Of a stretch of 64,000 nucleotides of DNA, positions 7,757-63,865 are shown in pieces. The stretch covers positions 1,178,001 through 1,242,000 of the forward strand of contig NZ_JANUHB010000001.1 in assembly GCF_024756255.1 (NCBI RefSeq), in the 5' to 3' direction. The notes below the pieces were generated by a model that saw only the letters and a program-made list of their open reading frames with translations, had not been told where the DNA came from and did not search any database. Both the position numbers and the translations under genes were made by a program. How positions within the stretch are numbered: the stretch's first letter is position 1; each line of letters begins with the position of its first letter. The stretch comes from Massilia agilis. GTDB lineage: Bacteria; Pseudomonadota; Gammaproteobacteria; Burkholderiales; Burkholderiaceae_D.

Positions 7757-7789
7757 CGTGTTTTACAAGCGCTCGTCCGACATCCGAAC

Positions 7790-9260: not shown

Positions 9261-9333
9261 GTAGGGTGGGCTCTCGAGCCCACGCGGGCACACGGTGCGT
9301 GTCGATGCGCGTGGGCTCAAGAGCCCACCCTAC
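9261..9333. repeat. Family-1 palindromic repeat, copy A
   Basis: Two inverted arms (GTAGGGTGGGC at the left, GCCCACCCTAC at the right) joined by a short spacer. Each arm is itself a hairpin: GGGCTC/GAGCCC in both. It lies between the convergent ends of tal and the TetR gene. Seven more copies occur in the window (16015, 19001, 25638, 34637, 36386, 51466, 53636). Confidence 0.9.
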
Positions 9334-9345
9334 GCTCCCTGTATC

Positions 9346-16014: not shown

Positions 16015-16088
16015 GCAGGGTGGGCTCCTGAGCCCCCGCGTTGCTCACGCGCCGCGTACGTCGGCGTGGGCTCGAGAGCCAACCCTAC
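16015..16088. repeat. Family-1 palindromic repeat, copy B
   Basis: A somewhat decayed copy: outer arms GCAGGGTGGGC and GCCAACCCTAC, inner hairpins GGGCTC/GAGCCC. Located between the efflux terminator and the M28 gene. Two outer mismatches suggest an older insertion than the other copies. Confidence 0.8.
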
Positions 16089-16222
16089 GCGCCCTTGGCC
16101 GTTCCCGTGCGCTCGCCCCCCTGATTGGCTTCGTGTTCACAATCCCGCCCGCCGCGGCGAACTTGGATGCGCCTGCCGTGTCTACCAGTTGAGCGGCGCC
16201 CCTTTCGCGCCGGCAGACTGCC

Positions 16223-17285: not shown

Positions 17286-18989
17286 ATGAGACAATATTTC
17301 CAGAACCTGCAGATCGGGACCCGCCTCGCCCTTGGCTTTGCCCTCATTCTTGGACTGTCGATCGTCTCGACCACCTACGCCTTGCTCAACGCGCGCAGCA
17401 GCGTGGCCTCGATGCGCCAGATGATGGCCGACCCGATCGTGACCGAACGGCTCGCGGCCGATATGAAGACCCTCATCATGAGCGGCGTGTGGCGCACCGC
17501 GATGGTGGCGGGCAGCACCGACACCAACCTCGGCGTGACCTTCGCCAAGGCGATTGCCGACGGCGCGCGCGATGGCAGCGCGGTGATGAAGAAGATCCAG
17601 AGCCGGCTCGTGACCGACGAAGAAAAATCCGTGTTCGCCGCACTCAACGAGACGCGCAACAAGTACCAGGCCGCCAAGAACGCCGTGATCGACGCCAAGA
17701 AGGCCGGCAAGCTCGAGGAAGCCGACCGCCTCTACAAGGAAGTGTTCACGCCCGCCACCGACGCCTACAAGGCGGGCGTCGAAGAAATGCTCAAGCTGGA
17801 GCGCCGCATCAGCGACGACATGGCCGACCGCATTGAAGCGGCAACCGAACGCGACACCATGCTGTGCATCCTGCTCGGCGCGCTGATGCTGGCGTTCGGT
17901 GGCGTGTGCGCCTTCTTGCTGGCGCGCTCGATCACCCGTCCGCTGGCCTCGGCCGTGAAGGTGTCGCAGGCGGTGGCCAGCGGCGACCTGACCACCGTGT
18001 TCACGGCCCAGCCCAAGGACGAGGTGGGCGACCTGATGCGCGCGCTGCAGCAGATGAACGACGGCCTGGCCAAGCTGGTGGGCGAGGTCCAGGCGGGCAC
18101 CCACGCCATCGCGGGCGCATCGGGCGAAATCGCCAGCGGCAACCTCGACCTGTCGGCGCGCACCGAGCAGCAGGCCAGCGCGCTGGAAGAGACGGCATCG
18201 TCGATGGAAGAGCTGACCGCAACCGTGCGCCACAACGCCGACAACGCCGGCCAGGCCAACCAGTTGGCCCAGGCGGCATCGACGGTGGCCGGCCGTGGCG
18301 GCGAGATCGTCGGCAAGGTGGTCGACACGATGGGCTCGATCGACGCCTCCTCGCGCAAGATCGTGGACATCATCGGCGTCATCGATGGCATCGCCTTCCA
18401 GACCAATATCCTGGCGCTCAATGCCGCCGTGGAAGCGGCGCGCGCGGGCGAGCAGGGTCGCGGCTTCGCGGTGGTGGCCTCGGAGGTGCGCAACCTGGCA
18501 CAGCGTTCCGCGGCAGCGGCCAAGGAGATCAAGACCCTGATCGGCGACTCGGTCGAGCAGGTGAACCAGGGCACGGAACTGGTGCAGCGCGCCGGTGCGA
18601 CGATCAAGGAAGTGGTGGACAGCGTGGCGCGCGTGACCGACATCATGGCCGAGATCACGGCGGCCAGCCGCGAGCAAAGCGCCGGCATCGACCAGGTGAA
18701 TGAAGCGATCACGCACATGGACCGCGCAACGCAGGAAAATGCGGCGCTGGTCGAGGAAGCCGCCGCGGCGGCGGCCAGCATGCAGGAGCAGTCGGCACGG
18801 CTGGCCGCGGCGGCGAGCCGCTTCCGGCTGGGGGCGGGACAAAGCGTGCCCGCGCCGGTTGCCCCGCGCGCGGTGGCAAAGACCGCGCCGCCAACCAGGC
18901 GCATCGCGCAGAAAGCCACTGCCGCCAAGCGCCCGGCACGGCGCGAGCCCGAGCTGGCGGCAGCTGGCGGCGAATGGGAACAGTTCTGA
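17286..18989 (+). CDS. Methyl-accepting chemotaxis protein
   Basis: Inner-membrane chemoreceptor of 567 residues. First membrane helix about residues 12-34, a periplasmic four-helix-bundle sensor (about 35-187), second helix about 188-212, HAMP ([20 protein letters not shown]), then the cytoplasmic signalling coiled coil with the CheA/CheW hairpin tip [30 protein letters not shown] at about 364-393. The C-terminus EWEQF resembles the pentapeptide that tethers CheR/CheB (NWETF type), reached by a basic, Ala/Pro-rich linker. The periplasmic region tells nothing definite about the ligand. The preceding 265 bases hold no gene; no sigma-28 promoter of good quality was found there. Confidence 0.94.
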
Positions 18990-21839: not shown

Positions 21840-21945
21840 ACGTCGTTCCCGCGCAGGCGGGAACCCATGGACAGCTGGGCAGGCCGCAAGATCGCCGCGA
21901 GCAGTTCGAGCTCAGCATGGGTCCCCGCCTGCGCGGGGACGACGT
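21840..21945. repeat. Family-2 REP doublet, empty (106 bp)
   Basis: Inverted pair of about 29-base arms (21840-21868 and 21917-21945). The right arm folds on its own as GTCCCCGC and GCGGGGAC around a CTGC loop; the left arm has a one-base pair change with both sides altered (TTCCCGC/GCGGGAA), keeping pairing. About 48 bases separate the arms. It sits directly between the stop codons of the CPBP gene and rph, and matches the doublets at 63762 and 29052. Confidence 0.9.
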
Positions 21946-26697: not shown

Positions 26698-26772
26698 GTT
26701 TCTCCGGTCATCCGGGGGAGTCAGTCCGTAATTCTGTTATTCTGTTCAAACAAGGGCTGAACGACATTGCGT

Positions 26773-29010
26773 ATGAACCTGACCACCCCGGATTCGACTC
26801 AAGCAGGCAACGCCAAGACCCGGGCCAGGCGCCCGGAGCCTGCGCAGCAGGATTCCGCCGACGCGTCGCAAGGCGTGGCTTCGGTCACGCAGCTCGTCAA
26901 CAAGCTCCAGCAATACCTCACCCCCGCCGAACTGAAAAAGGTCAAGGAAGCCTACCGCTTCTCTGACGAGATGCACCTTGGGCAATTGCGCAAGTCCGGC
27001 GAGCCCTACATTTCCCATCCGATCGCCGTCGCCGAAATCTGCGCCGACTGGAAGCTCGACGCCCAGGCCATCATGGCCGCGCTGCTGCACGACGTGATGG
27101 AAGACCAGGACGTCAAGAAGGACGAACTGATCGAACGCTTCGGCCCGCAGGTGGCCAACCTGGTGGACGGCCTGTCCAAGCTCGAAAAAATCGAGTTCCA
27201 GAGCCTGGTCGAGGCGCAGGCCGAAAACTTCCGCAAGATGCTGCTGGCCATGGCCAGCGACGTGCGCGTCATCCTCATCAAGCTGGCCGACCGGCTGCAC
27301 AACATGCGCACGCTCGGCTTCATGACGCCGGCCAAAAAGCGCCGCATCGCGTCCGAGACGATGGAAGTGTATGTGCCGATCGCGCACCGGCTCGGCCTGA
27401 ACAACATCTACCGCGAGCTGCAGGACCTGGCGTTCTCGCACCTGTACCCGATGCGCTACCGCACCCTGGCCAAGGCGGTCAAGGCGGCGCGCGGCAACCG
27501 GCGCGAGGTGGTCAAGAAGATCCTCGAGGCGGTCAAGAACACGCTCGCGATGGCCGGGCTCCCGGCCGAGGTGTACGGGCGCGAAAAGACGCTGTACGGC
27601 ATCTACAAGAAGATGCGCAACAAGCACCTGTCGTTCTCGCAGGTGCTGGACGTGTACGGCTTTCGCGTGGTGGTGGACACGGTCCCCAACTGCTACGTGG
27701 CACTGGGCGCGCTGCACGGGCTGTACAAGCCGATGCCGGGCAAGTTCAAGGACTACATCGCGATCCGCAAGATCAACGGCTACCAGTCGCTGCACACCAC
27801 GCTGATCGGCCCGTACGGCACGCCGGTGGAATTCCAGATCCGCACCCAGGAGATGCACCGCACCGCCGAATCTGGCGTGGCGGCGCACTGGCTGTACAAG
27901 AACGGCGACGCCAACATGAGCGACCTGCAGCAGCGCACCCACGCGTGGCTGCAGTCGCTGCTCGACATCCAGCAGCAGACCGGTGACTCGGCCGAGTTCC
28001 TGGAGCACGTCAAGGTCGACCTGTTCCCCGATTCGGTGTACGTATTCACGCCCAAGTCCAAGATCATCGCCTTGCCGCGCGGCGCCACCGCGCTCGACTT
28101 TGCCTACTCGATCCACACCGGCATTGGCGACCACACGGTGTCGGTCAAGATCAACCACGAGCCGCAGCCACTGCGCACCGAGCTGCACAACGGCGACATC
28201 GTCGAAATCGTCACCGATCCCGACTCGCGGCCGAGCCCCACCTGGCTCAGCTTTGTCCGCACCGGCAAGGCGCGCTCGGCGATCCGCCACCACCTGCGCA
28301 CGGTGAACCTGAACGAATCGGTGGAGCTGGGCCAGGAGCTGCTGGCGCAGGCGCTGGGCGTGCTGGGCATCAAGCCCGACCTGCCGCCGGCCACGGTCGA
28401 AAAGCTGCTGGGCGAATCGTCGGCCAAGTCACTGGAAGAGGTGTATGCGGACATCGGCATCGGCAAGCGCATGCCGGCGCTGGTGGCGCGCCACATCTTC
28501 GGCCTGATGGACGAGACCGGCGCCCTGCCGGCGGCGCAGCCGGCTGCCGGCGGCGAGCTGGACCCGGTCACGATCTACGGCAGCGAGGGCGTGTCGGTGC
28601 AGTTGGCCCCGTGCTGCCTGCCGATCCCGGGCGACTCGATCATCGGCCAGCTGCGGCGCGACCAGGGGCTGGTGGTGCACACGGCAGACTGCTCGCAGGG
28701 CAAGCGGTTGCGCCTGAAGGAGCCGGACCGCTGGATCGCGGTACAGTGGGGCACGGAGCTCAATCGCCGGTTCGACTGCCGCATACGCCTGTTGATCAAC
28801 AACGAAAAAGGCATCCTCGCGCGCGTGGCGGCCGAAATCGGCGAGTCCGACGCCAACATCACCTATGTGGGCATGGACGAGGACGACGAACACATGATGA
28901 CCCAGCTGCGCTTCACGATCCAGGTGAAGGACCGCGTGCACCTGGCGCACCTGATCCGCAACCTGCGGCGCGTGGCCGGCGTGAATCGCGTGGAGCGCGA
29001 GCGGGCGTAA
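26773..29010 (+). CDS. spoT: Bifunctional (p)ppGpp synthetase/hydrolase SpoT
   Basis: Stringent-response enzyme that makes and degrades (p)ppGpp. About 745 residues. N-terminal HD hydrolase domain with HDVMED near residue 107 and the later DRLHNMRTL; synthetase domain about 250-370 with YGREKTLYGIYKKM and KINGYQSLHTT; TGS domain from about 416 (LFPDSVYVFTPKSKII); a linker region with CCLPIPGD; C-terminal ACT domain about 665-745 (ARVAAEIGESDANITYVGM). The intact HD motif shows hydrolase capacity, hence SpoT rather than RelA. The ATG at 26773 was taken; a TTG two codons earlier is possible. The C-terminus is followed after 41 bases by the palindrome doublet with the nuclease. Confidence 0.96.
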   Translation: MNLTTPDSTQAGNAKTRARRPEPAQQDSADASQGVASVTQLVNKLQQYLTPAELKKVKEAYRFSDEMHLGQLRKSGEPYISHPIAVAEICADWKLDAQAIMAALLHDVMEDQDVKKDELIERFGPQVANLVDGLSKLEKIEFQSLVEAQAENFRKMLLAMASDVRVILIKLADRLHNMRTLGFMTPAKKRRIASETMEVYVPIAHRLGLNNIYRELQDLAFSHLYPMRYRTLAKAVKAARGNRREVVKKILEAVKNTLAMAGLPAEVYGREKTLYGIYKKMRNKHLSFSQVLDVYGFRVVVDTVPNCYVALGALHGLYKPMPGKFKDYIAIRKINGYQSLHTTLIGPYGTPVEFQIRTQEMHRTAESGVAAHWLYKNGDANMSDLQQRTHAWLQSLLDIQQQTGDSAEFLEHVKVDLFPDSVYVFTPKSKIIALPRGATALDFAYSIHTGIGDHTVSVKINHEPQPLRTELHNGDIVEIVTDPDSRPSPTWLSFVRTGKARSAIRHHLRTVNLNESVELGQELLAQALGVLGIKPDLPPATVEKLLGESSAKSLEEVYADIGIGKRMPALVARHIFGLMDETGALPAAQPAAGGELDPVTIYGSEGVSVQLAPCCLPIPGDSIIGQLRRDQGLVVHTADCSQGKRLRLKEPDRWIAVQWGTELNRRFDCRIRLLINNEKGILARVAAEIGESDANITYVGMDEDDEHMMTQLRFTIQVKDRVHLAHLIRNLRRVAGVNRVERERA

Positions 29011-29051: not shown

Positions 29052-29502
29052 ACGTCGTCCCCGCGCAGGCGGGGACCCATAGACCGCCAGCACACTTGTT
29101 GCGCGCGTTCATATCAAATCAAAGTAAAGATCCCTCCACTGCGGATTAAGTGCGTGCACCAGCCTGAGCTTCCACTCGCGATTCCAATGCTTGATCTGCT
29201 TTTCGCGGCGGATTGCTTCGACAATATCGGTATGGACCTCGTACCAGACGAGCTGTTTGACTCCATATGTTTTGGTGAACCCATCGGCGAACTCTTCGCG
29301 ATGTTCCCACACGCGGCGAATGAGGTCGGACGTGACGCCGATATACAGCGTCCCGTAACGACCGCTGGCGAGCATGTACACGAACGATGGCTGGCCCATG
29401 TGGCGTATCGTTAGGGTTTGGGAGCAGGTCGCGGATGATGAGGCTCAACCGTCCGCGCCTTCGGTAACGCAGCATGGGTCCCCGCCTGCGCGGGGACGAC
29501 GG
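29052..29502. mobile_element. Family-2 REP doublet enclosing a GIY-YIG nuclease gene
   Basis: Inverted arms of about 29 bases at 29052-29080 and 29474-29502, nearly identical to those of the empty doublets at 21840 and 63762; each arm forms the GTCCCCGC/GCGGGGAC hairpin with a CTGC-type loop. The sequence next to the arms (CCATAGAC at left, CAGCATGGG at right) also recalls the empty copies (CCATGGACAG, CTCAGCATGGG). The nuclease gene fits neatly between: its stop is 28 bases from the left arm and its start 75 bases from the right arm. No target-site duplication was recognised. Confidence 0.65.
29109..29399 (-). CDS. Small GIY-YIG nuclease-domain protein
   Basis: A 96-residue stand-alone GIY-YIG endonuclease domain. 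The two signature strands are SFVYMLAS (Tyr8 in the GIY position) and GTLYIGVTS (the YIG part), followed by the helix DLIRRVWEHREEF with Arg28 and His33, the strand QLVWYEVH and the helix EAIRREKQIKHWNREWK, which holds the metal-binding Glu and the conserved Asn73. All expected catalytic side chains are present, so it should be active. There is no DNA-recognition domain. No good ribosome site precedes the ATG at 29399. It is framed by inverted family-2 palindromes, suggesting a role in their movement or upkeep; this is inference. Confidence 0.88.
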   Translation of the reverse strand: MGQPSFVYMLASGRYGTLYIGVTSDLIRRVWEHREEFADGFTKTYGVKQLVWYEVHTDIVEAIRREKQIKHWNREWKLRLVHALNPQWRDLYFDLI

Positions 29503-29578: not shown

Positions 29579-30064
29579 TCACAGCCGCGGGTCGTAGAGG
29601 AACTGGCGCGATACCTCAGCCGAGAGCAGGACGGCCTCGGGGTGGGCCGGATTGACCAGGACATTGAACTCTTCTGGAACGATCACCGAAGGGAGCAGCA
29701 GCAAGGCCGAGCGAGCGCTGGCCAGCCATTCGTTCCCCAAGCGAATGCTGGTGGACCCCGGCGGTTCAGCCAGCCAAGTCGGATCGAGCTGGTGTGCCTG
29801 CACGATCTCGCGGCCCGACCACACCACAGCAGGAACCGTGACCCGCACCAGGAAAGCGTTTCGAAGGGCGATGTTGTCGCCGAGATGGGCGAGCGTCTCC
29901 AGCGTGGACAGGGCGATGGACGTCGATGCGTAAACGACGGCCTTGCCCTTCGCATTCCAGCGTCCGCCCGTCAGGCGCGCTCCCCCACCGGTCAGGTCGG
30001 TTGCGGGGTACTGCTCCGTGTGCTTTGCAAACCGCCAGATGGTCCGGTCGCCTTCAGGCGTCAC
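29579..30064 (-). CDS. RES-domain toxin
   Basis: A 161-residue RES-family protein, the toxin of a Xre-RES type II toxin-antitoxin pair; relatives degrade NAD+ or modify a target with ADP-ribose. Family residues: Arg35 in TGGRWNAKG, Tyr45/Ser47 in VVYASTSIA, Glu56 in LSTLETLAHL, and a Ser in LLLPSVIVPEE, followed by the typical NVLVNPAHP. Start is GTG at 30064, overlapping the antitoxin stop as GTGA, so the pair is coupled. It starts after the antitoxin, the usual order of this group. Confidence 0.9.
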   Translation of the reverse strand: MTPEGDRTIWRFAKHTEQYPATDLTGGGARLTGGRWNAKGKAVVYASTSIALSTLETLAHLGDNIALRNAFLVRVTVPAVVWSGREIVQAHQLDPTWLAEPPGSTSIRLGNEWLASARSALLLLPSVIVPEEFNVLVNPAHPEAVLLSAEVSRQFLYDPRL

Positions 30065-30519
30065 GAAATTACCCCGAATTCGATTCTTCCTAGCGTGTCG
30101 AGCACAAGTTCGTAGCCAACTTCGGTATCGAGCATCGCCAGCGGCACTTCACCGCCCAGCGCGCGATTTTCGCGGTTCAGCCACGTGCGCGCGGCGGCGG
30201 CGTCTTCCAGTACCGAAATAGCTCGGTTCAGCACGCGTTCTGCGCGGTAGACACGGTCTTGCTCGGTTGCGGACAGCAGCTCGTTCTTGCTGATGCGCCC
30301 CTTCACCGTACTTTTGGGCAAGCGGAGCAATTCGAACAAGCGTTCCTGGCTGACGCCAAGGTTGGCCGCGACGGCGGGGATAGCGCGGGCAGGCGTGCCC
30401 GCCCGCATTTGCCGGATCATGTCGCCCGTGTCACCGGCAAACGCCACCGGCCCCTGGCTTGCCACTCCTGCACTCGCCCGGCTCGCGACGTCGTGCTTCG
30501 TTGCTGACTTGAACACCAT
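30061..30519 (-). CDS. Xre/MbcA/ParS-type antitoxin
   Basis: A 152-residue antitoxin, first gene of the pair. The central part (about 45-85) is an Xre-like helix-turn-helix (IPAVAANLGVSQERLFELLRL, then STVKGRISKNELLS) and the C-terminal part is the toxin-binding domain formerly called DUF2384, with RTWLNRENRALGGEVPLAML and the end VLDTLGRIEFGV. It should repress its own operon through the N-terminal domain and block the RES active site with the C-terminal tail. Starts at the ATG at 30519. Confidence 0.9.
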   Translation of the reverse strand: MVFKSATKHDVASRASAGVASQGPVAFAGDTGDMIRQMRAGTPARAIPAVAANLGVSQERLFELLRLPKSTVKGRISKNELLSATEQDRVYRAERVLNRAISVLEDAAAARTWLNRENRALGGEVPLAMLDTEVGYELVLDTLGRIEFGVIS

Positions 30520-34636: not shown

Positions 34637-34709
34637 GTAGGGTGGGCACTCGTGCCCACGCGGTGATACGCGCCGCGTGAAAACGCGTGGGCACAAGTGC
34701 CCACCCTAC
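34637..34709. repeat. Family-1 palindromic repeat, copy E
   Basis: Outer arms GTAGGGTGGGC and GCCCACCCTAC; inner hairpins GGGCAC/GTGCCC in both halves. Lies between the response regulator and the diguanylate cyclase gene. Confidence 0.9.
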
Positions 34710-34806
34710 GACCCCGTCCGCATTTATTGCTCGGGTTCATTGGTTAGGTGCAACTACCAGTGATATCATTGCGGCAACGAGCAGTTAACGCCACGTTTGG
34801 CCCTCG

Positions 34807-53615: not shown

Positions 53616-54244
53616 TTTCAGCGATTCGCCGTTTCGTAGGGTGGGCACTCGTGCCCACGCGGGCACACGCGACGCGCGCACGTAGCGCGTGGGCACGAGT
53701 GCCCACCCTACGGGCGGCGGCGGCGCTTGCCTTGGCGGCCGGGCTTTGCCTGCCGTCGTACGCACAGGTCCAACAACCGGGCGCCGTAAGCGACCAGGCA
53801 CAAACCAGCGCCAGCGTGGCGACGGCGCCGCAGGCAAGCACGCCCGCCCCCGCGCCGGCCCAGCCGGCGCCGCAGGCCACCTACCAGCCACCCGCCGCGC
53901 CTGCCGCCGGCGGCCTGCTGCAAACGCTGCTCGCGCTGTGCTTCGTGCTGGCCCTGCTGGCGGGCCTGGCCTGGCTGGCCAAGCGCTTCGGCCCGCGCGC
54001 CATGGGCGGCACGGCCAACCTGCGCATCGTCGGCGCCCTGTCGCTGGGCGGGCGCGAACGCATCCTGGTGGTCGAAGTGGCCGACCAGTGGATCGTGGTC
54101 GGCGCCTCCCCTGGCCGCGTCAACGTGCTGTCGACCATGCCCAGGCAGGAGCTCCCGCCCGCGCCCCCGGGCATGGCCGCGAGCGTGCCGGCCGGCTTTG
54201 GCGACTGGCTCAAACAGACCCTTGAAAAACGTAATGCGAAATAA
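53612..54244 (+). CDS. fliO: Flagellar biosynthetic protein FliO, with a repeat-derived N-terminal extension
   Basis: Membrane protein assisting assembly of the FliP export-gate ring; 210 residues. A single membrane helix with [29 protein letters not shown] (about 108-135), then the FliO domain [30 protein letters not shown]. Before it stands a signal-like segment ([18 protein letters not shown], about 35-52). Residues about 9-34 ([17 protein letters not shown]) are encoded wholly by a family-1 palindromic repeat, so the gene start has been invaded by the repeat and stays open through it. Start at 53612 overlaps the fliN stop. Confidence 0.9.
53636..53711. repeat. Family-1 palindromic repeat, copy H, inside fliO
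   Basis: Full-size copy with outer arms GTAGGGTGGGC and GCCCACCCTAC and inner hairpins GGGCAC/GTGCCC in both halves. It lies wholly within the 5' coding region of fliO and is in frame with it; the spacer contains GCACACGCGACGCGCGC-like Cys-free, Arg/Ala codons. Confidence 0.9.
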
Positions 54245-63761: not shown

Positions 63762-63865
63762 ACGTCGTCCCCGCGCAGGCGGGGACCCATGGACAGTGTG
63801 CAGGTTCGCACCGTGTCCGGCAACGGCAAACTCAGCATGGGTCCCCGCCTGCGCGGGGACGACGT
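63762..63865. repeat. Family-2 REP doublet, empty (104 bp)
   Basis: Inverted arms at 63762-63790 and 63837-63865, each folding as GTCCCCGC/GCGGGGAC around CTGC-type loops; spacer 46 bases. It lies inside the flg operon, between the flgE stop and the flgF start, and has the same edges (CCATGGACAG at left, CTCAGCATGGG at right) as the copy at 21840. Confidence 0.9.

Follow-up and report, generated by a model that had tools for sequence, protein, structure and literature searches.

The stretch of Massilia DNA analyzed here, a window of 64,000 nucleotides, probably carries a genetic element with two parts, a small nuclease of the GIY-YIG type and the CGTC-tagged REP hairpins cognate to it. The nuclease gene sits inside a long version of an inverted hairpin doublet that is otherwise scattered without a gene, and the number of doublets in the genus depends on the gene.

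The nuclease gene and its hairpin arms

The features of the window that belong to the element or adjoin it are as follows.

21840-21945, no strand: short doublet without a gene, presumed non-autonomous relative; one long hairpin, z -6.9
26767-29010: RelA/SpoT gene (called spoT), flanking the nuclease gene on one side
29053-29079, forward strand: CGTC-tagged hairpin arm downstream of the gene, composed of CGTC, an 8-bp stem, a 4-nt loop, and CCA
29080-29086, forward strand: tail TAGACCG inside the downstream arm, common to many short doublets
29109-29399, reverse strand: GIY-YIG nuclease gene of 96 amino acids, presumed enzyme of the system; complete ORF matching PF01541
29468-29474, reverse strand: tail on the inner side of the upstream arm, TGCTGCG when read from the arm
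29475-29501, reverse strand: CGTC-tagged hairpin arm upstream of the gene, in inverted orientation to the downstream arm
29579-30519, reverse strand: RES-Xre toxin-antitoxin pair, adjoining the element on the other side
63762-63865, no strand: short doublet without a gene, presumed non-autonomous relative; one long hairpin, z -11.2

The two arms that enclose the gene are 100% complementary over 28 nt (29053-29080 and 29474-29501). In each of them, the CGTC tag is followed by the stem GTCCCCGC/GCGGGGAC, the loop, and the CCA tail, and one such arm, tail included, folds at -10.5 kcal/mol. The sequence-only reading of this locus had described a complete 96-residue GIY-YIG gene between inverted palindromes of 29 bases. 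The gene and its enclosure stand, but the length is 28 nt rather than 29, because one outer base differs between the arms. The two further copies of the doublet that it had placed in the window without a gene were found, and they fold at -43.5 and -51.8 kcal/mol, beyond 200 of 200 shuffles. The bases inside their arms, which had been called the same as those at the gene, are similar but not identical, with CATGGAC and CTCAGCATGG in the gene-less doublets compared with CATAGAC and CGCAGCATGG in the gene-bearing element. Many short doublets carry TGCTGAG, or a near form of it, where the gene-bearing element has TGCTGCG.

Arms are abundant in the genome from which the window comes, far beyond chance. 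Allowing up to three mismatches, we counted 189 arms in each orientation, with none for a reversed control pattern, and 353 arms when a looser pattern was applied at up to two mismatches. A strict pattern with the CGTC heads facing outward returned 76 doublets, again with none for the control, so that the unit has the REPIN-like form of two inverted REPs with a short spacer. A second family, GTAG-type REP doublets, is also present in the window at 9261-9339, 16016-16094, 34637-34715, and 53626-53720.

The anatomy of the arms is already described. In its passages on these repeats, the survey of Di Nocera 2013 (PMC3733652) presents CGTC-1 REPs as sequences with CGTC at one end, an 8-bp stem, a 4-nt loop, and a CCA tail, which occur in high copy number and as head-to-head dimers, and it equates the CGTC REPs of Neisseria with dRS3. 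The window arms agree with this description in the unpaired CGTC end, stem length, loop length, CCA, copy number, and dimers. Since the arms are CGTC-tagged REPs by anatomy, the repeat family is not new, and the proposal of a new REP element family is not supported. According to the same passages, CGTC-1 stems almost invariably have complementary A-T at positions 1 and 2 (PMC3733652), whereas most stems of the window's own genome, among the matches listed, start with G-C (GTCCCCGC or GTTCCCGC); ATTCCCGC and ATCCCCGC stems occur as well.

The ORF at 29109-29399 matches the GIY-YIG domain PF01541 with 46 bits against a cut-off of 22.6, and this is its sole recognized domain; none of the NCBIfam models matched the nuclease at E 0.001. 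An alignment of 18 nuclease sequences, including that of the window, has 25 invariant columns, among them Y7, G20, R28, H32, E65, K69, and N84 (the alignment numbering begins at residue 2). The only other PF01541 match of the genome lies in an open frame of 648 codons, which we take to be UvrC. By sequence, the nearest solved structure and single plausible match is the UPF0213 protein BH0048 (PDB 1zg2, E 1.3e-4), which is close to the nuclease only in relative terms, being a distant match, and for which we know of no link with repeats. With regard to the neighboring RES-Xre pair, alignment shows that similar sequence follows the element in genome G058 and is absent at that position in the closer sister G028.

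Arm number and gene presence across Massilia and beyond

Among 62 genomes of the genus, a full gene is present in 31, with 32 copies in total, 30 of the 31 carrying a single copy. One more genome, G026, gave a partial match (E 4.9e-6) and was scored as lacking the gene. The gene-bearing genomes (n = 31) hold 47 to 484 arms with a median of 202, and those without the gene (n = 31) hold 0 to 206 with a median of 1 (Mann-Whitney p = 9.5e-11 over the 62 genomes). The gene is distributed patchily on a SpoT tree of 61 genomes, from which G048 was left out because its SpoT match was short. When 11 phylogenetically independent pairs were taken on supported branches and genomes were divided at 40 or more arms, arm number went with the gene in 9.7 pairs on average and against it in 0, with no difference in 1.3 (median sign-test p 0.002). 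Cut-offs of 10 and 47 arms gave 8.3 and 10.2 pairs with the gene, respectively, and 0 against. The sequence-only reading had held that gene and palindromes form one system, with palindrome abundance independent of the gene as the contrary case. Arm number tracks the gene across the 62 genomes, and such independence is excluded for this genus.

Counts of GTAG REPs show no link with the GIY-YIG gene (p = 0.23), and a general effect of the nuclease on all REPs was rejected for this reason. One genome without the GIY-YIG gene contains at least seven GTAG repeats in a row at a regular spacing of 91 bases (G003:C11:148561-149134).

Six genomes that lack the gene keep 20 or more arms (G007, G012, G026, G041, G052, and G059, with 20-206 arms), which indicates that the gene is unnecessary for mere persistence of the arms. 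We read these genomes as recent losers of the gene. An overlooked small nuclease gene was considered for them and rejected, as each has one PF01541 match, located in a frame of 662-850 codons that is presumably UvrC. In G026, a truncated nuclease gene lies near an arm next to purD (L113/L224), and this genome still holds 206 arms.

The position of the arms at the gene varies among loci. Within 260 nt upstream or 200 nt downstream, at least one arm is found near 30 of the 32 gene copies. Arms lie on both sides of 16 copies, 15 by the arm rule and one (L087) by complementarity, and the other 16 are not enclosed. Copies with no palindrome nearby, which the sequence-only reading had named as a possible refutation if common, are rare in the genus (two of 32), but unenclosed copies are frequent. 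Eleven of the unenclosed loci have two or three arms, all upstream and none downstream, and apparently represent one chromosomal neighborhood, as judged from ORF clusters that they have in common, some of which are in wrong frames. Two further loci have a single upstream arm, and in G017 there is a doublet upstream only. No arm was found near the gene in G024, which has 137 arms genome-wide, or in G042, where the contig ends 75 nt upstream.

The gene occupies at least three neighborhoods, namely beside purD, at the site shared by the 11 loci, and beside spoT; its neighborhood in G011 has no ORF cluster in common with the other loci. Downstream of purD, which was compared in 16 genomes, four have the gene with arms (G016, G017, which is not enclosed, G021, and G057) and three have a short doublet (G000, G028, in which the second arm is broken, and G058). 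One genome has the truncated gene, one has a GTAG-type doublet, and seven have neither gene nor doublet. At the site after spoT, compared in 61 genomes, the gene-bearing element is present in three, a short doublet in four, and a single arm in one, and the remaining 53 have none of these within 700 nt.

Inverted repeats also accompany the gene outside Massilia. At a score of at least 30, they flank 26 of 43 non-Massilia copies compared with three of 251 control ORFs, and at a score of at least 38, they flank 20 copies compared with two control ORFs. The test covered 250 nt on each side, and the controls were other ORFs in 44 of the loci; L033 and L046 (flank too short), L049 (partial), and L003 and L004 (Massilia) were left out. 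Hairpins of the CGTC or TGTC type make up many of these repeats, and their stems vary from lineage to lineage. When the arm rule was applied strictly, an arm was present within 300 nt in 16 of 45 loci, and arms were 30 times as dense there as in the rest, although arms within one locus are not independent of each other.

Enzyme lineages, tail classes, and doublet turnover

The tail just inside the arm falls into three main classes, TGCTGAG/TAGACC (T-class), AGTT (A-class), and a run of T. The scattered arms mostly share the tail of the resident gene-bearing element. Among the matches listed and judged by eye, the AGTT tail is present in 90 of 100 scattered arms of G057, and T-class tails are present in 50 of 50 scattered arms of G058; two arms with another tail lie near the G058 gene locus, outside these 50. 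Similarly, in stretches of 400 kb, T-class arms account for 60 of 61 in G000 and for 31 of 31 in G028. The earlier suggestion that the short doublets are relatives of the gene-bearing copy is supported in that they mostly have the same subterminal sequences as the resident element.

Stem, loop, and tail of the arms largely vary together with the enzyme lineage. In a nuclease tree of 96 columns with mixed branch support, G031, one G019 copy, G023, G017, and G021 (T-class) group with G000 and G028, and the AGTT-type G056, G057, and the other G019 copy stand together. In the host tree, unlike in the nuclease tree, G019, G031, G056, and G057 group together. G019 has two nuclease genes (L087 and L096), one from each clade, and was predicted beforehand to hold both arm classes. 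This was borne out: the first 100 matches out of 174 comprise 27 T-class and 73 A-class arms, and the two classes have different loops as well. The corresponding prediction for G031, which has a T-clade nuclease and was expected to hold mostly T-class arms, failed, as only four of 50 arms among the matches listed are T-class, two of them at the gene. We suppose, after the fact, that the T-clade nuclease of G031 recently replaced an AGTT-type one.

The turnover of doublets was followed by comparing 400 kb of G000 with its sister G028 (94.7% identical where aligned). At 15 of 29 doublets of G000, a doublet-sized stretch lies at the same place in G028; at two of these sites (A15 and A24), the stretch in G028 is taken up by a GTAG-type repeat. 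Likewise, at A17, G028 has a GTAG-type repeat where G000 has a CGTC doublet. Among ten junctions inspected, no insertion with target duplication was seen. The cleanest case of presence and absence is A16, where the junction is fairly clean and there is no target duplication; at A5 and B3, the arms are also absent from the sister, but the junctions are ragged. In the proposed comparison of empty and filled sites, about half of the doublets are at sites filled in the sister, and A16 is a candidate for a presence/absence difference.

Other sites differ in form. At A6, A22, and A28, the doublet of G000 is matched in G028 by a single, sometimes imperfect palindrome that has CGTC at either end, and at B2 the relation is reversed; this is the pattern that slippage between the two stem-loops would leave. 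At ten shared sites, the interiors were scored for orientation: two were inverted in place, one (A1) was ambiguous, and seven had the same sense. The clear inversions are those of A4 (L151 near base 18194) and A19 (L158 near base 7768), with scores of 54 and 62 against -3 and -4 and with unmoved flanks. The interior of A7 looks inverted by eye. The gene-bearing element beside spoT is reversed in G058 relative to G000 and G028, and the G058 nuclease is of another lineage.

Possible mechanism, alternatives, and known systems

One close parallel is the Ssn family. These site-specific GIY-YIG nucleases of Neisseria are reported, in Nature Communications in 2025, to cut single-stranded DNA at a repeat of which the bacteria have hundreds of copies, and are said to have a role in natural transformation. 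The window system shares two features with that family, a small GIY-YIG protein and a cognate repeat in many copies. By this analogy, the window system is best read as a putative Ssn-like nuclease with cognate CGTC REPs. If that report holds, the window system would be a new member of that kind and adds new evidence on gain, loss, and the matching of enzyme and repeat. Our literature search returned nothing on a link between such an enzyme and the repeats; we do not claim that it is absent from print, given the Ssn report.

The nuclease probably recognizes the arm as a single-strand hairpin, including the CGTC head and the tail, and, as reported for the Ssn family, would cut at the single-stranded arm. 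Recognition and cutting of the arm hairpin would account for the way in which arm and tail vary with the enzyme and for the low number of arms in genomes that lack the gene. Nuclease activity would keep the doublets numerous either by helping copies spread or by favoring conversion of existing copies. In this view, the gene-bearing element would act as the master copy, with the gene-less doublets of about 80-104 nt as its relatives. Once the gene is lost, decay of the doublets would be expected, in part through slippage that reduces a doublet to a single palindrome ending in CGTC on either side.

A stronger version of this account makes the GIY-YIG nuclease the missing dedicated enzyme of the CGTC REPs. 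Gene and arms would form an autonomous mobile element responsible for the generation, conversion, and flipping of doublets. It would be a counterpart of RAYT and REPIN with an unrelated nuclease at its core, and stem, loop, and tail would determine its specificity. We hold this version tentatively, at somewhat less than an even chance. REP elements of enterobacteria and pseudomonads are mobilized by single-copy RAYT transposases that are flanked by inverted REPs. The system described here is similar in that a gene is flanked by an inverted repeat that is also scattered as gene-less inverted doublets. However, the RAYT enzyme of a REPtron is a Y1 HUH transposase, whereas the window enzyme matches PF01541 only. 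In its passages on CGTC REPs, the survey of Di Nocera 2013 (PMC3733652) describes them as apparently without a dedicated transposase and names their extinction among two possibilities. In the system described here, the repeats are tied to a GIY-YIG gene.

An alternative of lower but real probability is that the protein is a domesticated single-strand nuclease serving DNA uptake or genome dynamics, with the arms as selected recognition sites and not as its mobile elements. The reported role of Ssn in natural transformation is in line with this, as is the finding that about half of the G000 doublets (15 of 29) are at sites filled in the sister genome. However, gene and arms are gained and lost together patchily, the gene has several sites, and gene-bearing copies occur where relatives have a short doublet, all of which look more like a selfish element. 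It is improbable that the REP doublets came first and the nuclease gene merely invaded one of them, taking no part in their number. The wealth of AGTT arms in G031 despite its T-clade nuclease and the up to 206 arms of gene-less genomes would fit such an invasion, but arm number depends strongly and specifically on the gene, and in G019 the arm class follows the enzyme lineage.

Mobilization of the CGTC doublets by a RAYT-type Y1 transposase, with the GIY-YIG gene incidental, was considered because the window's own genome has one Y1 match and because RAYTs are regarded as mobilizing GTAG REPs. The distribution of Y1 transposases across the 62 genomes rules this out for practical purposes, as RAYT-like genes are present in 60 of them, including arm-less ones, and their number runs slightly against arm number (rho -0.33, p 0.009). 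Moreover, in its passages on CGTC REPs, the 2013 survey reports no CGTC-flanked RAYT gene in the species examined (Di Nocera 2013, PMC3733652). It is just as implausible that the palindromes are mere transcription terminators between genes and enclose the nuclease gene by coincidence, since strong hairpins and three apparently intergenic window sites would suit terminators but not the lineage-specific hairpins that flank most of the non-Massilia copies or the dependence of arm number on the gene.

The two-part element of nuclease and cognate hairpins is the preferred reading. CGTC REPs, for which the relevant passages of the 2013 survey name no dedicated enzyme, follow a GIY-YIG gene in number throughout a genus, and none of the 11 independent pairs runs the other way. 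This makes it possible to test directly where a repeat known from several phyla comes from. A natural series of enzyme and target pairs is on offer for this, together with intermediate genomes in which the gene is gone and the repeats remain.
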